From SAR116 cluster bacterium (lineage in GTDB: Bacteria > Pseudomonadota > Alphaproteobacteria > Puniceispirillales > Puniceispirillaceae), in NCBI GenBank assembly GCA_004212735.1, contig SHBD01000011.1:1-44980 (forward strand): a stretch of DNA of 44,980 nt, written 5' to 3'. The notes beneath the pieces were generated by a model. The model had not been told where the DNA came from. It saw only the letters and a list, made by a program, of their open reading frames with translations, and searched no databases. The number at the start of each line of letters is the position of its first letter. Position 1 is the first letter of the stretch. This document shows, in pieces, positions 476 to 6,819 of the stretch. A program made the position numbers and the translations under genes.

Positions 476-1711
476 GTGACCAAGATCGCCGAGATGCCTG
501 CCGTAGGTCGCGGTTTTATATCAAACCTACAATTACCCACCTTTGAAGATCCAGCGTGGACAACGCCTGTCCCTGCCAGCCAGCGGCGCGTCTCAATTGT
601 CTCAACCGCGGCAGTTTCACGGCGCGGTGACAAACCCTTCTCTTGGCTTGCCAAGGACCATCGGACGTTTCACAAGAACGACCGCGACCTCGTTATGACC
701 CACGTGGCCGTTGAATTTGATCGCTCCGCATGGCAGCAAGATCTCAACGTAATCATTCCACTGGACCGCCTCGAAGAGATGGCACAGGACGGCGAAATCG
801 GGTCTGTGGCTGATGAGCATTATTCTTTCATGGGAGCCGCTGACCCCGTGACGATGGAGAAATCTGCTCATGCGGTTGCGGAGCAAATGAAGCAGGAAGG
901 CGTCAATACAGTCTTTCTGATCCCCATATGACCGTTTTGTACGCGCGCCGTGTGCGGGCTTGCTCATTATTTTGAATCTGAAGGTTTGTCGACTGTTCTT
1001 GTTGGTTTTGTGCGCGAACATATGAAAGCCATCAAGCCTGCACGCGGATTGTTTTTGGATTTTCCGATGGGACGGGGCATGGGTAAACCCAATGATCCTG
1101 AGTTCCAAAAGAAGGTGATACGCGCTGCATTCGATTTATTTGACTTAGAAACAGGCCCCGTGCTGGAGGATTTTCCCGAAACCATCCCCGTGCGAGATGG
1201 ACGCATGGGCTATGCGTTGCCGCCAGAGCTTGTTTTGAGCACAAGTGATATCGGCGATGTGGATTCGTTAGTGGCCGAGGTTCAGACTGAGATAGACGCA
1301 TTGTTGCCAGACTACGAAGCGGCGGTAGCATCTCGCGGGCGCACAACCGTCGGGGCCAGCGAATTTCCCATAAAGGATTTTGCACCTTTTATCTCCAAAT
1401 TCATCAGAGGCGAAATACCAAAAAGCCCCCGAAAAGGGCTGCCAGCCATTCCCCTGTTGAAACTGGTTGTCGAAGATTTGGAAGCTTACTACACCGAAAC
1501 AAGAACCCACCGCGACGGGATCGATGATCTGGAATTGATGGGAAAATGGTTCTGGGAAGAGACCAAGGCTGGCCGATTGCTCCTGTCACTCGAAGCAATT
1601 TCGATCGTCTCTGATAACAAGGTCATGCTGCAAATTGTCGAAATGTCACTCATGGCGCCGAGATTCTGGTCTGAAGGTCCCTTGCCCGGAACATCAGCTG
1701 CCGGGTGGTGA
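476..1711 (+). CDS. GrdB/PrdB-family selenoprotein (Sec at TGA 929-931)
   Basis: Two open frames in the same phase are separated only by TGA at 929-931. Read as selenocysteine, this gives about 411 residues with Sec at residue 152 in the motif U-P-F-C, followed by another Cys at 160. The part before Sec carries hallmarks of the glycine/sarcosine/betaine/D-proline reductase selenoprotein B family (GrdB/PrdB): an IPLDRL segment, HYSFMG, and a hydrophobic strand (VFLIPI) leading into the Sec. In clostridial relatives the Sec acts in reductive cleavage of a C-N bond; the substrate here is unknown. The GTG start at 476 is chosen for the GGGGA ribosome site at 463-467; ATG 494 is an alternative, and the 332 start adds an unrelated hydrophobic leader. 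The tail after about residue 260 is longer than in PrdB. The adjacent selA, selB and tRNA-Sec strongly support recoding. Confidence 0.88.
935..960 (+). promoter_or_regulatory. Candidate bacterial SECIS hairpin
   Basis: Bases 942-946 pair with 952-956 (one G-U) around a five-base loop, GCCGT, that begins 15 bases after the TGA. A small hairpin at this distance, with a G at the start of the loop, is what SelB recognises in bacteria. The stem is short, and I could not establish a bulged U or a unique fold by eye. Confidence 0.35.
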
Positions 1712-1779: not shown

Positions 1780-2142
1780 ATGTTGAAGTTTTCCGAAGAT
1801 CATGAATGGGCTAGGCTTGACGCCGAGATATGTTCTGTTGGCATCTCACCTCACGCCGTTGAACAGCTTGGCGATATCGTATTTGTCGAGTTACCAGAAA
1901 TTGGAACAATTGTCGATAAAGGCGATGAGGTCGCGGTGATTGAGTCCGTGAAAGCCGCCTCCGATATCTACAGCCCTGCTGCCGGTCAAATCACCGAAGT
2001 CAACAATGCGCTGCTTGATGACCTCTCATCAATCACACCAGAAAGCGCGATGGAAAACTGGCTTTTCAAACTGAAGATCAGTGACATATCTGATCTCGAT
2101 CAGTTGATGGACGAGGATGCCTATAAAGCTTCGGTTGGGTAG
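1780..2142 (+). CDS. GcvH-like lipoyl carrier protein
   Basis: This 120-residue protein has the H-protein layout: DHEWARLD near the N-terminus, GDIVFVELPE in the middle, then ESVKAASD with the lipoylated Lys at residue 58, then a second half ending NWLFKLK. GcvH carries a lipoyl arm that shuttles an aminomethyl group and electrons in the glycine cleavage system. No gcvT, gcvP or lpd gene is visible here. Instead it starts 68 bases after the selenoprotein gene on the same strand, so it is probably co-expressed with it. It is slightly shorter than usual and the segment after the lipoyl site departs from typical GcvH. I infer a specialised H-protein paralogue that could supply or accept electrons as a dithiol; a role as the housekeeping GcvH is possible but less likely. 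Confidence 0.85.
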   Translation: MLKFSEDHEWARLDAEICSVGISPHAVEQLGDIVFVELPEIGTIVDKGDEVAVIESVKAASDIYSPAAGQITEVNNALLDDLSSITPESAMENWLFKLKISDISDLDQLMDEDAYKASVG

Positions 2143-2308: not shown

Positions 2309-2404
2309 TGGCGAAAGAGCGTGGGAGTCGAACCCACCAGGGACGTTGTACGCCCCTCACTAGATTTGAAGTCTAGGCGCCCCACCGGGGTGCGATCCTC
2401 TTCC
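2309..2404 (-). tRNA. selC: tRNA-Sec (anticodon UCA)
   Basis: Read on the minus strand from 2404, this is a 96-base tRNA including an encoded CCA. The anticodon is TCA (plus-strand 2367-2369) in the loop CTTCAAA, flanked by a CTAGA/TCTAG stem. The T arm is GTGGG-TTCGACT-CCCAC. There is a long variable arm with a 7-bp stem (GGGGCGT/ACGTCCC) and an elongated D arm. These are the marks of selenocysteine tRNA, which is charged with Ser, converted by SelA and delivered to UGA codons by SelB. The acceptor has seven pairs (one G-U); the eighth position expected in bacterial tRNA-Sec is G opposite G. It begins 5 bases after the selB stop and is probably processed from the selA-selB transcript. Confidence 0.95.
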
Positions 2405-2409
2405 CTTTA

Positions 2410-4341
2410 TCAGTTACTCTTTAGCGACAAAATACTGTTGGGGGAACACCGGACTCGCCGGTGCCCGCCCTCCTGCACTGTATATCCTATTCGGTCAAAA
2501 TATTCCAAAACGGCAATCACAAAATTCCTTCCCAAATTCACCTCATCCCGATACTCGGCTGTTGTGAACAAACCATCTCTCGACCGCGCGGCGAGTTGCT
2601 CAGCAATGGTTGCAAGCGTTATCAGCACGGTTTTTGGCAGATAGCGATTTTTCTCCATCACTATAATTTTCCCCAATTTGATACCAATTTTTAGCGCATT
2701 TTCGAGTGAGGACACGTCAACTCCGATATCCTTGGCTGCCTGATGAAGGCTGGGAGGAGTGCCCGATTTTGGAGACAAAACCACTATAGCGCGCGCCAAA
2801 AGACTTTTGTCCTGCTCCTCTAGATCTACAGCGTGAGAGGGCAAATGGAATTTTTTGCCGTTAGCGCCAAGGCGTTTTTCCGCAACCAACAAGCCTAGGG
2901 CTGCGTCAAGCGTCGCTGTTTCAAAAAAAGGGGTAAGCAATGTCTGTACATCTTTGACGCTGGCACCGGAAAGGGCGGGATTGGACTCGTGAAATCCGAT
3001 CATGATTTTTTCAATGCGATCGGATAGTTCGCGCCATCTTTTTTTGGAGAAAATCCGTTCCTTGGGCGAGTTTCCAACAAGTCTTAACTCCAGAGACGCA
3101 GTGAGCGACTTGATCTGCAATGTTGGCAAATTATGCGACACAGCAAACGGCTGTAGTGACACACCGGTCACGCTTTGGTCTGTTAATTCTCTCAGTATCT
3201 CAGCTGGGTTTTCACCACACATTACCTTCAGGCTTGCAATACGGCTGGGCTTTGCGCGGCCGCGTTTGGGTGAAAAGGGATCAATCACACGCCCTCCTGC
3301 GATCGTGCGTTGGGCAGATTGGTCACGCAATACAAAACGATCGCCATGACAGACAAATGTTTCGCGAAGCAGCACCAGTTGGGCCAAGCCACGTGTACCC
3401 GCGGCAATACTCCCCCCCGATAAAACCGCAACCCGCGCTGGCAGATGATCCGAGCCAATATGTAAATGCGTTGGCGTCCAGTGTTTCAACGCACCTGCCT
3501 CAGCTGGCAATACCTCAAGATCAACATCTATGCGCGTTGTTGGATTGTAGAGGTCGGAATGCATTAACCAGCTGCCACGCCTTACTGAGTGTTTGCCAAC
3601 ACCGCGCCCAGTGATGTTTAGGGCGCAGCGCTCGCCAGCTTTTGCGCAGTCACTTTCCCGGCTGTTAACCCTGATTCCACGAATGCGGACCGGCGATCCG
3701 TTTGACGAAAGTGTGAGACTTTCTGATGTGTGAGCCAAACCGGAAACCACCATACCAGTTACAATCAAACCGACACCTTTAAATGAGAAAACCCGGTCAA
3801 TGGCCATTCTGAAATGATGATGGGTGGCGCGGGCAGTGCAGACCTTGGCGTGCTGGGCAAGCGCCTGACTAAGCTCGTCAATTCCCTCACGCCTGGGGGC
3901 ACAAATTGGATAGACGTCACACTCTTCTCTCCCTGACTCGATCAAAAGCCGGTCAAGCTGAGCCTGCACTTCACTGATACGCTCTGGTTGCACACGATCA
4001 ATCTTGGTCAATGCGACCAGACATTGCTCAATGCCAAGCAGGTTTAGTATGGCCAAATGCTCGCGCGTTTGCGGCATCACACCATCATCAGCAGCCACCA
4101 CCAGCAGGCTCAGGTCAATCCCGGCAACCCCTGCCAACATGTTTCGGACGAACTTTTCATGGCCGGGAACATCTACAAAGCCGAGCATCCCTGAGCCAGG
4201 CAACGCTTGATATGCAAATCCCAGATCCACTGACAATCCACGTGCCTTTTCCTCTGGCAAACGGTCGGTGTCAGTCCCGGTCAGAGCTTTGATCAGCTCA
4301 GTTTTGCCATGATCTACATGACCGGCCGTTGCCACAATCAT
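2410..4341 (-). CDS. selB: Selenocysteine-specific elongation factor SelB
   Basis: This 643-residue translational GTPase has the SelB arrangement. The N-terminal G domain carries GHVDHGKT (7-14), the switch segment GLSVDLGF (35-42), DVPGH (57-61) and TKID (112-115). EF-Tu-like domains follow, and a long C-terminal part in the range of the winged-helix repeats that bind the SECIS hairpin. SelB brings Sec-tRNA to the ribosome at UGA codons. Its start overlaps the selA stop by 4 bases (ATGA), which indicates translational coupling, and the tRNA-Sec follows 5 bases after its stop. Its length matches typical bacterial SelB, and all GTP-binding motifs are intact. The client selenoprotein lies just beyond the tRNA on the opposite strand. 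Confidence 0.96.
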   Translation of the reverse strand: MIVATAGHVDHGKTELIKALTGTDTDRLPEEKARGLSVDLGFAYQALPGSGMLGFVDVPGHEKFVRNMLAGVAGIDLSLLVVAADDGVMPQTREHLAILNLLGIEQCLVALTKIDRVQPERISEVQAQLDRLLIESGREECDVYPICAPRREGIDELSQALAQHAKVCTARATHHHFRMAIDRVFSFKGVGLIVTGMVVSGLAHTSESLTLSSNGSPVRIRGIRVNSRESDCAKAGERCALNITGRGVGKHSVRRGSWLMHSDLYNPTTRIDVDLEVLPAEAGALKHWTPTHLHIGSDHLPARVAVLSGGSIAAGTRGLAQLVLLRETFVCHGDRFVLRDQSAQRTIAGGRVIDPFSPKRGRAKPSRIASLKVMCGENPAEILRELTDQSVTGVSLQPFAVSHNLPTLQIKSLTASLELRLVGNSPKERIFSKKRWRELSDRIEKIMIGFHESNPALSGASVKDVQTLLTPFFETATLDAALGLLVAEKRLGANGKKFHLPSHAVDLEEQDKSLLARAIVVLSPKSGTPPSLHQAAKDIGVDVSSLENALKIGIKLGKIIVMEKNRYLPKTVLITLATIAEQLAARSRDGLFTTAEYRDEVNLGRNFVIAVLEYFDRIGYTVQEGGHRRVRCSPNSILSLKSN

Positions 4342-5732
4342 GTGACATCAAGTCCCTTCAGGCTCTCGATAAAGCTGCTTTCATCCTCCAGACATCTGAG
4401 ATCAAACCATAATGCATCGTCGGTAATGCGGCCAATCACCGGAATAGGCAGATCCCTGAATGCCTTGGCCAGCTTGATCAAGGCTCTACCTGGGCGTCGG
4501 TAGCCTGGCACAGTTATTTTCAGAGCTGCACTTGCCAATGTGTCATTTGGCAATGCGCCACTTCCTATCTGGCTTTGGACAGGCGCGGCAACCACCTCAA
4601 ACCCTTTGCAATGATCTTGCACGGTGGAGGCCATGCGGTCCGCTAATCGCGCAATGTCCGCCTGGTCCCGGGACAACCAGCGCAGAGTTGGCAATTCAGT
4701 CGCCAGTTGCGAGGGGTCGGTATATAAACGCAACACCGCCTGCAAGGCCGCTAACGTCAATTTGTCAGGCCGCATCGCGCGCGTCATCGGATTGCGTTTA
4801 AGTTTCGTGATCAAATCACGCCGACCTGCAATGATGCCGGCCTGCGGTCCACCAAGAAGTTTGTCACCGCTAAAGGTTACCAAATCAGCGCCAGCTCTCA
4901 CGGCTTCGGCGACAGTGGTTTCATGTGGCAAGTGGTGGCTCTCCAGATCAATCAGCGTGCCGCTGCCAAGGTCGGTAATGAGTGGCAGATCATGACGATG
5001 TGCAATCTCAGCAAGTGCCTGCTCAGAAACGTTTTTTGTGAAACCTTTAATCTCAAAATTGCTGGCATGCACCTTCATCAACAGGGCGGTTTTCGGTCCA
5101 ATCGCCAGCTCAAAATCTGTATCATGCGTCCTATTTGTTGTGCCAACTTCCACTAACTTGCAACCCGCCTGAGCCATAATATCAGGCATCCGGAACGCAC
5201 CACCAATCTCGATCAACTCACCGCGGGAAACCGGGACTTCCTTGCGCTTTGCCAGGCTATTGAGTGTGAGTAGCACAGCCGCAGCATTGTTGTTCACGAT
5301 GAGCGCAGCCTCCGCTCCCGTCAAGTAACATAGCAAATCCTCGGCATGTTCATGACGATCGCCGCGCTTGCCCGTTTCCAAATCGAATTCCAGATTGCTG
5401 GCACCCCGCGCAACATCAACCATTGCCTTGATCGCAGACTCCGGTAAGGCGGCTCGTCCAAGATTGGTGTGCAGCACCGTACCTGTCAGATTAATTACTG
5501 GCCGCAGCGAAGGCCTTACCGTGTGCGCTGTCTCTTCTGACAGCGTTTTCAAAAGCCAGTTATATTCGATTGCCGTGCCCGCCAACACCTGCTTCCTTGC
5601 CTCTGCCAAAACGGTTTGTACAGTTCGGGTGACGAGAGACGCGCCAAATTCCCGCACCAGCAAAGCACCATTTGGATCGTTTAACAGGCGATCAACAGAG
5701 GGCAGTTTCTCCGGCTTATCAATCGTCGTCAT
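4338..5732 (-). CDS. selA: L-seryl-tRNA(Sec) selenium transferase SelA
   Basis: This 464-residue PLP enzyme converts seryl-tRNA-Sec to selenocysteinyl-tRNA-Sec using selenophosphate. The family segments are present: INLTGTVLHTNLGRA (80-94), NNNAAAVLLTL near 147-157, ITDLGSGTL (252-260), and SGDKLLGGPQAG, in which Lys291 is the expected PLP Schiff-base residue. The frame is open further upstream to 5846, but the ATG at 5732 is preceded by AGAGG at a proper distance and the extension has no family resemblance. It is the first gene of selA-selB-selC. The enzyme needs selenophosphate from SelD, for which no gene is visible in this window. Confidence 0.96.
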   Translation of the reverse strand: MTTIDKPEKLPSVDRLLNDPNGALLVREFGASLVTRTVQTVLAEARKQVLAGTAIEYNWLLKTLSEETAHTVRPSLRPVINLTGTVLHTNLGRAALPESAIKAMVDVARGASNLEFDLETGKRGDRHEHAEDLLCYLTGAEAALIVNNNAAAVLLTLNSLAKRKEVPVSRGELIEIGGAFRMPDIMAQAGCKLVEVGTTNRTHDTDFELAIGPKTALLMKVHASNFEIKGFTKNVSEQALAEIAHRHDLPLITDLGSGTLIDLESHHLPHETTVAEAVRAGADLVTFSGDKLLGGPQAGIIAGRRDLITKLKRNPMTRAMRPDKLTLAALQAVLRLYTDPSQLATELPTLRWLSRDQADIARLADRMASTVQDHCKGFEVVAAPVQSQIGSGALPNDTLASAALKITVPGYRRPGRALIKLAKAFRDLPIPVIGRITDDALWFDLRCLEDESSFIESLKGLDVT

Positions 5733-5958: not shown

Positions 5959-6819
5959 ATGCGCCTTGAAATCGATGTACTCAAGACATTCATTGCGGTG
6001 GCTGAAACCGGTTCGGTGAAGCATGCGGCAGAGCGCGTTGCGCGCTCACCTGCAGCCGTATCCATGCAAATGAAAAAGCTGGAGCGACTGATCGGCGCGC
6101 CGGTTTTTCATCGGACCGAAGGTGCCATGCGGCTATCGGATAGTGGCGACCGGTTGATGCCACATGCACATCGTATTGTTGAAGCAAATGATACCGCACT
6201 GACCGCACTGCTCAGCCCAGATATTTATGGGATGGTGCGGATTGGGTTGTGTCTGGAAAACATTGAAACACGGATGCCCGAAATTCTGGCTGGATTCTCC
6301 CGGGCACATCCTGGCGTCACCGTCAATATTACCGCAGGTGACGCGCAAGATTTGGCGGTGATGCTGGCCGCTGGCACATTGGATATCGCCATTTTAACCA
6401 CCGGTGGGGGCGTGGCACATCTTGAACATGATCGGCTCCTATATGAACAACCTCTGGTGTGGGCGACACACAAAAACAGCCAGCGCATTGGTGAACGGCC
6501 TCTAAAGGTCGCAGTTGCGCCAATCGGCTGTCCTTGGCGAGACGCTGCACTCGATGCTCTGAAACGCGCCGGCATTGAATATCGGATTGCGTATCTTTCA
6601 AACTTATCTGAGTCTCAACTGGCGGCAATCCGCGCAGATTTGGCAGTTGCAGCGTTACCCGCAAGCAGGGTCAATAACAGCGCCCAGCCGATTTGTGCGA
6701 ACAGCGACCTTCCCAAGCTGCCCTATACGCAAATGGTGCTGCGGATGTCTGACAAGCCCGATGCCAACACCAAAGCGCTGGCAGCGCAGATACTCGCAGC
6801 TTTCAAGAGACCAGTTTAA
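5959..6819 (+). CDS. LysR-family transcriptional regulator
   Basis: This is a 286-residue protein of normal length for the family. Residues 1-60 form the typical LysR winged helix-turn-helix (AETGSVKHAAERVARSPAAV and the following recognition segment, ending near LIGAPVFHRTEG). It is followed by a periplasmic-binding-like effector domain with the usual VRIGLCLE strand near residue 95. It is divergent from selA with a 226-base gap containing a dyad at 5910-5929. It may regulate the selenium operon or something elsewhere; the effector cannot be read from the sequence. The stop at 6819 is followed by a long non-coding stretch, so it is probably monocistronic. Confidence 0.9.
   Translation: MRLEIDVLKTFIAVAETGSVKHAAERVARSPAAVSMQMKKLERLIGAPVFHRTEGAMRLSDSGDRLMPHAHRIVEANDTALTALLSPDIYGMVRIGLCLENIETRMPEILAGFSRAHPGVTVNITAGDAQDLAVMLAAGTLDIAILTTGGGVAHLEHDRLLYEQPLVWATHKNSQRIGERPLKVAVAPIGCPWRDAALDALKRAGIEYRIAYLSNLSESQLAAIRADLAVAALPASRVNNSAQPICANSDLPKLPYTQMVLRMSDKPDANTKALAAQILAAFKRPV

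Follow-up and report, generated by a model that had tools for sequence, protein, structure and literature searches.

Enzymes of the GrdB type act by attack of a selenocysteine (Sec, U) on the substrate and are then reset by thiols, and D-proline reductase (EC 1.21.4.1) accepts dithiols including dihydrolipoate. A review table lists GrdB and PrdB as families with a UxxC motif (PMC13188914; this and the papers below are cited from the portions available). In GrdB, a relative of the protein described below, Sec binds or attacks a substrate carbon that is activated by a carbonyl (pyruvoyl) group, and thiols reset the system (PMC13188914, PMC10838667). The partner is not a pro-protein in the betaine system and, as we read that report, in the fluoroacetate system (PMC10838667).

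Sec-containing sequences annotated as 'proline reductase PrdB' have been found repeatedly in the sea: 42 in the Sargasso Sea (PMC1088965), 235 in 38 samples of the GOS survey (PMC2398784), and in another survey 'proline reductase' made up 6.4% of marine selenoprotein genes (PMC9402790). In the portions available, these surveys say nothing of the domain architecture, partner proteins or host organism of the marine sequences. A preliminary description of the DNA analyzed here stated that the family is known chiefly from anaerobic Firmicutes, a view that the 42 and 235 marine sequences show to be outdated. For Alpha- and Betaproteobacteria, a 2006 survey found FdhA to be the sole selenoprotein in members then known to decode Sec (PMC1794560). 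Mukai 2021 reported alphaproteobacterial sel genes together with Sec formate dehydrogenase, and the available portion of that paper makes no mention of GrdB or of glycine or proline reductase (PMC8124441). We searched the literature on SAR116 and Rhodobacteraceae selenoproteins, GrdB-like proteins, aerobic PrdB and Roseovarius betaine reductase, and none of the papers listed dealt with the long-form subfamily described below. Thus, the abundance of Sec 'proline reductase PrdB' in marine surveys is already known; what is new is the architecture of the protein, its missing partner, and the probable misnaming.

The window (the whole stretch of DNA analyzed, an entire contig of 44,980 nucleotides from a SAR116 cluster bacterium) almost certainly contains a selenoprotein gene at 476-1711 on the forward strand, with a full-length product made by decoding of UGA. 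With the internal TGA read as Sec, positions 476-1708 encode, from a GTG start, 411 residues with U152 within LIPI-U-PFC, followed by a terminal TGA at 1709-1711. Codon 152 is the in-frame TGA of a U-P-F-C motif (929-931, forward strand), and the one Sec-read protein spanning position 929 is that proposed in the preliminary description. The start is at the same place in 24 homologues, with M, V or L (ATG-, GTG- or TTG-type). The terminal TGA is a stop rather than a Sec codon because nine of the 24 homologues have TAA or TAG at that position (in L051, one of the nine, one codon later).

Conservation of the TGA and of the sequence beyond it argues strongly against a true stop. Translation table 11 terminates the reading frame at the TGA, giving one ORF that ends at 931 and one that starts at 950 (the two truncated genes expected of standard gene callers), as would also be the case if the TGA were a genuine stop or a pseudogene scar that left a product of 151 residues and a 3' portion that is silent. 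We consider that reading exceedingly improbable. A pattern-based scan that is able to detect close relatives only, run on a single genome per species (84,980 species), yielded 24 loci encoding proteins 67-94% identical to the window protein. Codon 152 was TGA in all 25 sequences (the 24 loci plus the window) and Cys in none. In 23 sequences (omitting L047, which is cut by a contig end, and L051, which is one codon longer), the ratio of synonymous to nonsynonymous codon differences was 2.5 for codons 1-151, 3.1 for codons 153-225, and 2.3 for codons 226-411, and codon position 3 was the most variable in each of the three sections. By these measures, the sequence on either side of the TGA is evolving as coding sequence. 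In a wider alignment of 73 proteins (long form, short form, PrdB, and GrdF), picked so that their matches cover the Sec site, the Sec column held Sec or Cys in 73 of 73, and three long forms with Cys form a single clade nested within the Sec long forms. Genes for tRNA-Sec, SelA, SelB and SelD are also present, as described below. Homologues that end at the TGA, or that have neither Sec nor Cys there, had been named beforehand as evidence against a selenoprotein and were absent from both sets; Cys homologues, which had been named as something to look for, were found in the wider set and were 0 of the 25 close sequences. Selenoprotein status was borne out in every sequence test that we made. One long-form member (L116, genome G094) contains a further in-frame stop codon, TAG, near codon 281, either an error or a sign of a decaying copy.

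The conserved stretch just past the TGA is a putative bacterial SECIS hairpin with some covariation. The SECIS-like hairpin (943-959, forward strand; loop at about 949-953) was delimited by synonymous conservation, folding, and compensatory changes. Synonymous identity among the 23 equal-length sequences was 0.80 across the 12 codons 3' of the TGA versus 0.46 gene-wide, and of 399 intervals of 12 codons, the top 19 all begin at codons 145-164. On folding, 35 of 39 long-form sequences, which are related to each other and hence not independent, were more stable than the mean of their own 200 synonymous variants (mean z of -1.06). A six-pair helix (alignment columns 15-20 with 26-31) has compensatory changes in two of its six pairs, G-C to A-U in four sequences and C-G to U-A in two. 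The covariation score of this helix was matched by 0 of 500 shuffles, and the number of cells changed on both sides by 2 of 500. The number of cells paired (43 of 500) and of pairs changed on both sides (216 of 500) were not exceptional, and the count of further pair types did not exceed that of the shuffles (479 of 500). In 21 of the 36 distinct rows, including that of the window, columns 17 and 29 do not pair, and the window's own hairpin was no more stable than dinucleotide shuffles.

The genes for Sec decoding are adjacent to the selenoprotein gene, as had been noted from the sequence. tRNA-Sec (selC; 2309-2404, reverse strand) was found with ARAGORN and scored 72 bits with Rfam RF01852 (gathering score of 47). 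It is followed by selB (2410-4341, reverse strand; TIGR00475, 393 bits versus a cut-off of 242) and selA (4338-5732, reverse strand; TIGR00474, 581 bits versus a cut-off of 268), for which we chose the start codon in an ORF that is open to 5846. The tRNA-Sec gene starts 5 bp past the selB stop on the same strand, and is thus adjacent to selB and not within it; in other alphaproteobacteria the tRNA-Sec gene is reported to be nested inside selB (PMC8124441). Divergent from selA, and part of the same island, is a gene for a LysR-type regulator (5959-6819, forward strand) that is approximately 75% identical to copies in L035, L036, L038, L040 and L052 and that has a match in 10 of the 24 close-homologue loci, some of which end too early to tell. 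selD is on a different contig of the genome (220 bits versus a cut-off of 125). The SelD encoded in the islands of L035, L036, L038, L040 and L052 is a fusion protein (733-740 residues), the N-terminal part of which by eye is FAD/NAD oxidoreductase-like. We compared the window to 11 Rhodobacteraceae/Roseovarius loci and found a median identity of 82% for the selenoprotein, 60% for SelB (11 loci), 73% for SelA (10 loci) and 75% for LysR (4 loci); on these values no other gene of the island is as well conserved as that for the selenoprotein.

The presence of tRNA-Sec in the SAR116 family coincides with that of the gene. A clear tRNA-Sec (at least 58.8 bits) was found in 6 of 61 genomes of the window's family, exactly the six that have a full-length, TGA-bearing copy. 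The next matches, near 50 bits, were tRNA-Ser in all four that were checked. This search scored 57 first-look candidates per genome, so weak matches may be lost, and completeness is 90% or higher in 28 of the 61 genomes. In a seventh genome (G013), the gene is cut at residue 135 by a contig end and no such tRNA was found. Two of the six (G025 and G017) carry a distinct long-form lineage, 38-39% identical, with its own sel genes. More widely, tRNA-Sec was on 22 of the 24 close-homologue loci, the exceptions (L046 and L047) being short contigs. Of the 37 other long-form loci, 15 have it. The seven PF00384 oxidoreductases (formate dehydrogenase relatives) matched in the window's genome have no internal stop, so a Sec-containing FdhA is unlikely there. 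Based on the co-occurrence with tRNA-Sec, this gene may be the main user of Sec in SAR116, which would offer a clear example of a single selenoprotein that perhaps keeps an entire decoding system in place.

The window protein is related to the GrdB and PrdB proteins and falls outside their curated families, so that only the first part of the family assignment made at the outset stands. The best NCBIfam match was TIGR04483 (PrdB), with 92.3 bits against a cut-off of 300 (a true PrdB scores 423.7); TIGR01918 (GrdB-type) gave 38.3 bits against a cut-off of 65.45. Pfam PF07355 (GRDB) gave 36.8 bits against a gathering cut-off of 22, over residues 78-148 only (profile positions 273-344 of 347). Judged by these matches, the protein is closer to PrdB than to GrdB-type proteins. 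In a tree of the core region (72 rows, midpoint root, GrdF furthest away, bootstrap not fully settled), PrdB adjoins two alphaproteobacterial groups that we call the long form and the short form. The long form (43 rows, support of 99/99) holds the window's clade (9 rows, 100/100) and the Cys clade (3 rows, 100/99). The short form (25 rows, 96/93) has 16 Sec and 9 Cys members, and the branch that unites the two forms is weak (81/74). The Sec motif is UPxC in the window's relatives (UPFC in the window, UPYC in L032) and CPxC in Cys homologues, versus UGTC in PrdB and GrdF. Residues invariant in the long form include His76, Asp82-Arg83 and His115, of which His76 is also aligned in PrdB and GrdF.

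By sequence, the gene belongs to a mostly Sec-containing long subfamily that is spread over the Alphaproteobacteria. Among 385 alphaproteobacterial genomes, 49 had a match at E 1e-10, and 33 of these, by our reading of the match rows, have the long form (a match past query position 330), 30 with an internal TGA and three without (G196, G202 and G406). Six alphaproteobacterial genomes have at least four family matches each. A sample of the phylum gave matches in 16 of 398 genomes, with the long form in the window's genome only and matches over the core region only in the others. SAR116 sequences are nested among those of Rhodobacteraceae in the tree, which suggests that the island gene was transferred between orders, although some of the sequences come from metagenome bins. 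The gene is also carried by a named strain, Roseovarius aestuarii KCTC 22174 (L052), and its function is therefore open to experiment.

The short form has features of its own. Members in L144-L162 and in rows of the genome sample are about 265-300 residues long, largely Sec-containing and alphaproteobacterial, many with a UPVCHQ motif. Loci L009-L028, of the SAR116 family, encode a Cys short form with CP[VI]CHQ; 18 of their 20 genomes gave no Sec long form and two (G017 and G025) carry both. The Cys short form of L009 is near genes that we take to encode a CoA-transferase and an AcnX-like protein.

The long form has a C-terminal domain beyond the length of PrdB. An AlphaFold2 model made with 42 diverse sequences (mean pLDDT of 88, pTM of 0.90) predicts a Rossmann-like alpha/beta domain at about residues 35-243 (578-1204, forward strand), which shares homology with PrdB and with the C-terminal half of GrdB-type proteins, and a helical domain at about residues 262-389 (1259-1642, forward strand). 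The longer C-terminus that had been remarked on at first is thus a predicted helical domain, compared to a PrdB of about 240 residues (238 positions in the profile, 241 residues in Terrisporobacter PrdB). Sec152 is placed between strand 145-149 and helix 153-168, where the helix begins. An earlier model had a pLDDT of 70; its 23 rows were, with one exception, the window or sequences that share 67% or more identity with it. Foldseek searches with both models gave no match at E 0.001 or below. The best VIA-align Z was 7.8, to a LacI-type regulator, in a range that may mean just a common arrangement; the matches listed included no thioredoxin fold, which carries no weight as evidence. Two sequence searches of the PDB gave no convincing relative (one match at E 0.52 in the first, none in the second), and PrdB gave weak matches there, mostly to asparaginases.

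The protein appears to stand alone, without a recognizable pyruvoyl-type partner. PF09338, the pyruvoyl-type partner of PrdB and GrdB systems, had no match in seven alphaproteobacterial genomes, one of which is only 57% complete, and each of two clostridial records used as positive controls had three. The window's genome (G000, 96% complete) was among those with no match, and hence no partner of the PrdA or GrdE/G/I type was found in it, in agreement, as regards PrdA, with what the preliminary description had said of this gene. Its view of the host as an aerobe is consistent with a haem-copper oxidase gene (cytochrome oxidase subunit I) in the genome.

Neighboring genes gave no recurrent operon partner. 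We surveyed Pfam matches in 127 of 238 neighbor ORFs, hand-picked from 35 of the 37 other long-form loci (L122 and L131 were omitted, as were most sel genes), and among the first 25 of 157 families none was in more than five of the 127; ADH and GST were each found five times and TauD four times. Because our simple method of calling ORFs yields spurious ones where loci are GC-rich, absences there are weak. Four loci (L114, L117, L122 and L133) have aldehyde-oxidase-like and GST-like genes near the long-form Sec gene and also, by clustering, an ORF of the selD-fusion type, a possible clue to a pathway. Upstream and on the same strand in L042 and L050 are genes that by eye encode a GMC oxidoreductase, a VOC protein, a GcvT/DmdA-like protein, a molybdopterin oxidoreductase, and an HpcH-like protein.

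Besides the regulator and the Sec genes, a gcvH-like gene was the only one that we found associated with the island in two lineages. In the window (1780-2142, forward strand) this lipoyl-carrier gene scored 127.9 bits with TIGR00527 (cut-off of 115.85) and is the second copy in the genome; its product has, at K58, ESVKAASD, which we take to be the lipoyl-Lys motif. The other genomic gcvH adjoins an ORF that we presume to be GcvT-like. In SAR116 loci (the window, L029, L031 and L032) the island copy is beside the selenoprotein gene; in Roseovarius-type loci (L035, L036, L040 and L052) it is upstream of selA. Because the island copies cluster by lineage in a GcvH tree, gcvH was probably recruited into the island twice, separately. 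Across the 24 close-homologue loci it is intact in seven, degenerate in two (it is broken in G011 and G012), and without a match in 15. We therefore rejected an obligatory role for GcvH, which can at most be of help.

We favor, tentatively, a model in which the protein works alone as a Sec reductase and breaks a carbon-heteroatom bond of a substrate that is itself activated. With no recognizable pyruvoyl-type partner, a self-activated substrate is the simplest way to retain the chemistry of the relatives. Sec152 would attack a substrate carbon that bears a good leaving group (a quaternary ammonium, sulfonium, halide or thioether), and no Schiff-base-forming partner would be needed. Cys155 would then free the reduced product by forming a Se-S bond, and a cellular dithiol would reset the enzyme, possibly a dihydrolipoyl carrier in those lineages that keep the GcvH copy. 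The helical C-terminal domain may take over from the missing partner subunit in closing the substrate site. That the protein has a different reaction from its relatives, as first proposed, is a reasonable inference.

Other functions were weighed against the same evidence. The names given to such genes in marine surveys, a Pfam GRDB match above its cut-off (36.8 versus 22 bits) and TIGR04483 as the top NCBIfam match (92 bits) would all fit a genuine subunit of a D-proline (or glycine, betaine or sarcosine) reductase in an alphaproteobacterium. Yet 92 bits is far from the cut-off of 300 and from the 424 of a true PrdB, no PF09338 partner was found where the control was positive, and the protein has UPFC rather than UGTC, an extra domain, and a branch well apart from PrdB. 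Because the protein falls short of the curated cut-offs and no PF09338 partner was found, we rejected membership in these reductases and regard this function as very unlikely. The main rival is a thiol-disulfide, peroxide or sulfoxide reductase, with a glutaredoxin-like UPFC motif on a Rossmann-type scaffold, that serves in redox defense. UPFC resembles what we take to be its counterpart in glutaredoxin, CPYC, so plain thiol-disulfide chemistry is conceivable; L032 has UPYC, Cys homologues have CPxC, and a GST N-terminal domain is among the commonest neighbor families (5 of 127). In contrast, the invariant His76, Asp82-Arg83 and His115 seem to point to a substrate pocket, and His76 has an aligned counterpart in PrdB and GrdF, which act by bond cleavage. 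We think such a redox role unlikely, although less so than the other alternatives.

The varied neighbors of long forms (CoA-transferase, aldehyde-oxidase, TauD and GST, in part named by eye), the CoA-transferase and AcnX-like ORFs that adjoin a short Cys form, and the several family members within one genome could instead indicate a catabolic lyase or accessory factor, the substrate of which differs by paralogue, with the island form acting on one marine osmolyte or breakdown product. No neighbor family recurs strongly, though, and the constant neighbors in the window's own clade are Sec genes (LysR occurs at 10 of 24 loci, gcvH at some). We judge this explanation improbable.

If the partner-free bond cleavage that we favor applies throughout, a broader picture emerges, which we offer more tentatively than the model itself. 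There may be a large alphaproteobacterial family of partner-free selenoreductases that carry out an undescribed bond cleavage under air, that are the main reason SAR116 keeps Sec, that spread with the Sec genes as an island, that receive electrons from a lipoyl-carrying GcvH copy in some lineages, and that largely account for the marine 'proline reductase' counted over two decades. Should the marine genes be the partner-free long form, 'proline reductase' is a misnomer and a selenium-dependent reaction that is common in surface seawater would lack an assignment.

Compared to the known systems, the window protein is most like PrdB of Terrisporobacter and Peptoclostridium, with approximately 28% identity over residues 12-226, the same core, Sec/Cys column, conserved His, and FPxDRL and G-PN-type motifs, and Sec encoded by UGA. 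In contrast to the window protein with its UPFC, PrdB has UGTC, is about 240 residues long and lacks the C-terminal domain, and in Terrisporobacter prdA is just upstream of prdB. With GrdB, GrdF and GrdH (PF07355, TIGR01918), the similarity is to the C-terminal half of GrdB, which aligns and includes the Sec motif; unlike these proteins, the window protein is without the N-terminal half of GrdB and has no PF09338 partner, and GrdF is the furthest away in the midpoint-rooted tree. FarB, the GrdB-like fluoroacetate reductase of Cloacibacillus, is a relative of GrdB with a proposed C-X cleavage in a compound that is not an amino acid, as in our model, but its host is an anaerobe and it has a partner, FarE (PMC10838667). 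The marine 'proline reductase PrdB' sequences share with the window protein a marine origin and a Sec in UxxC (PMC1088965, PMC2398784), with pfam07355 in the GOS table, and in part they are probably members of the long-form subfamily.
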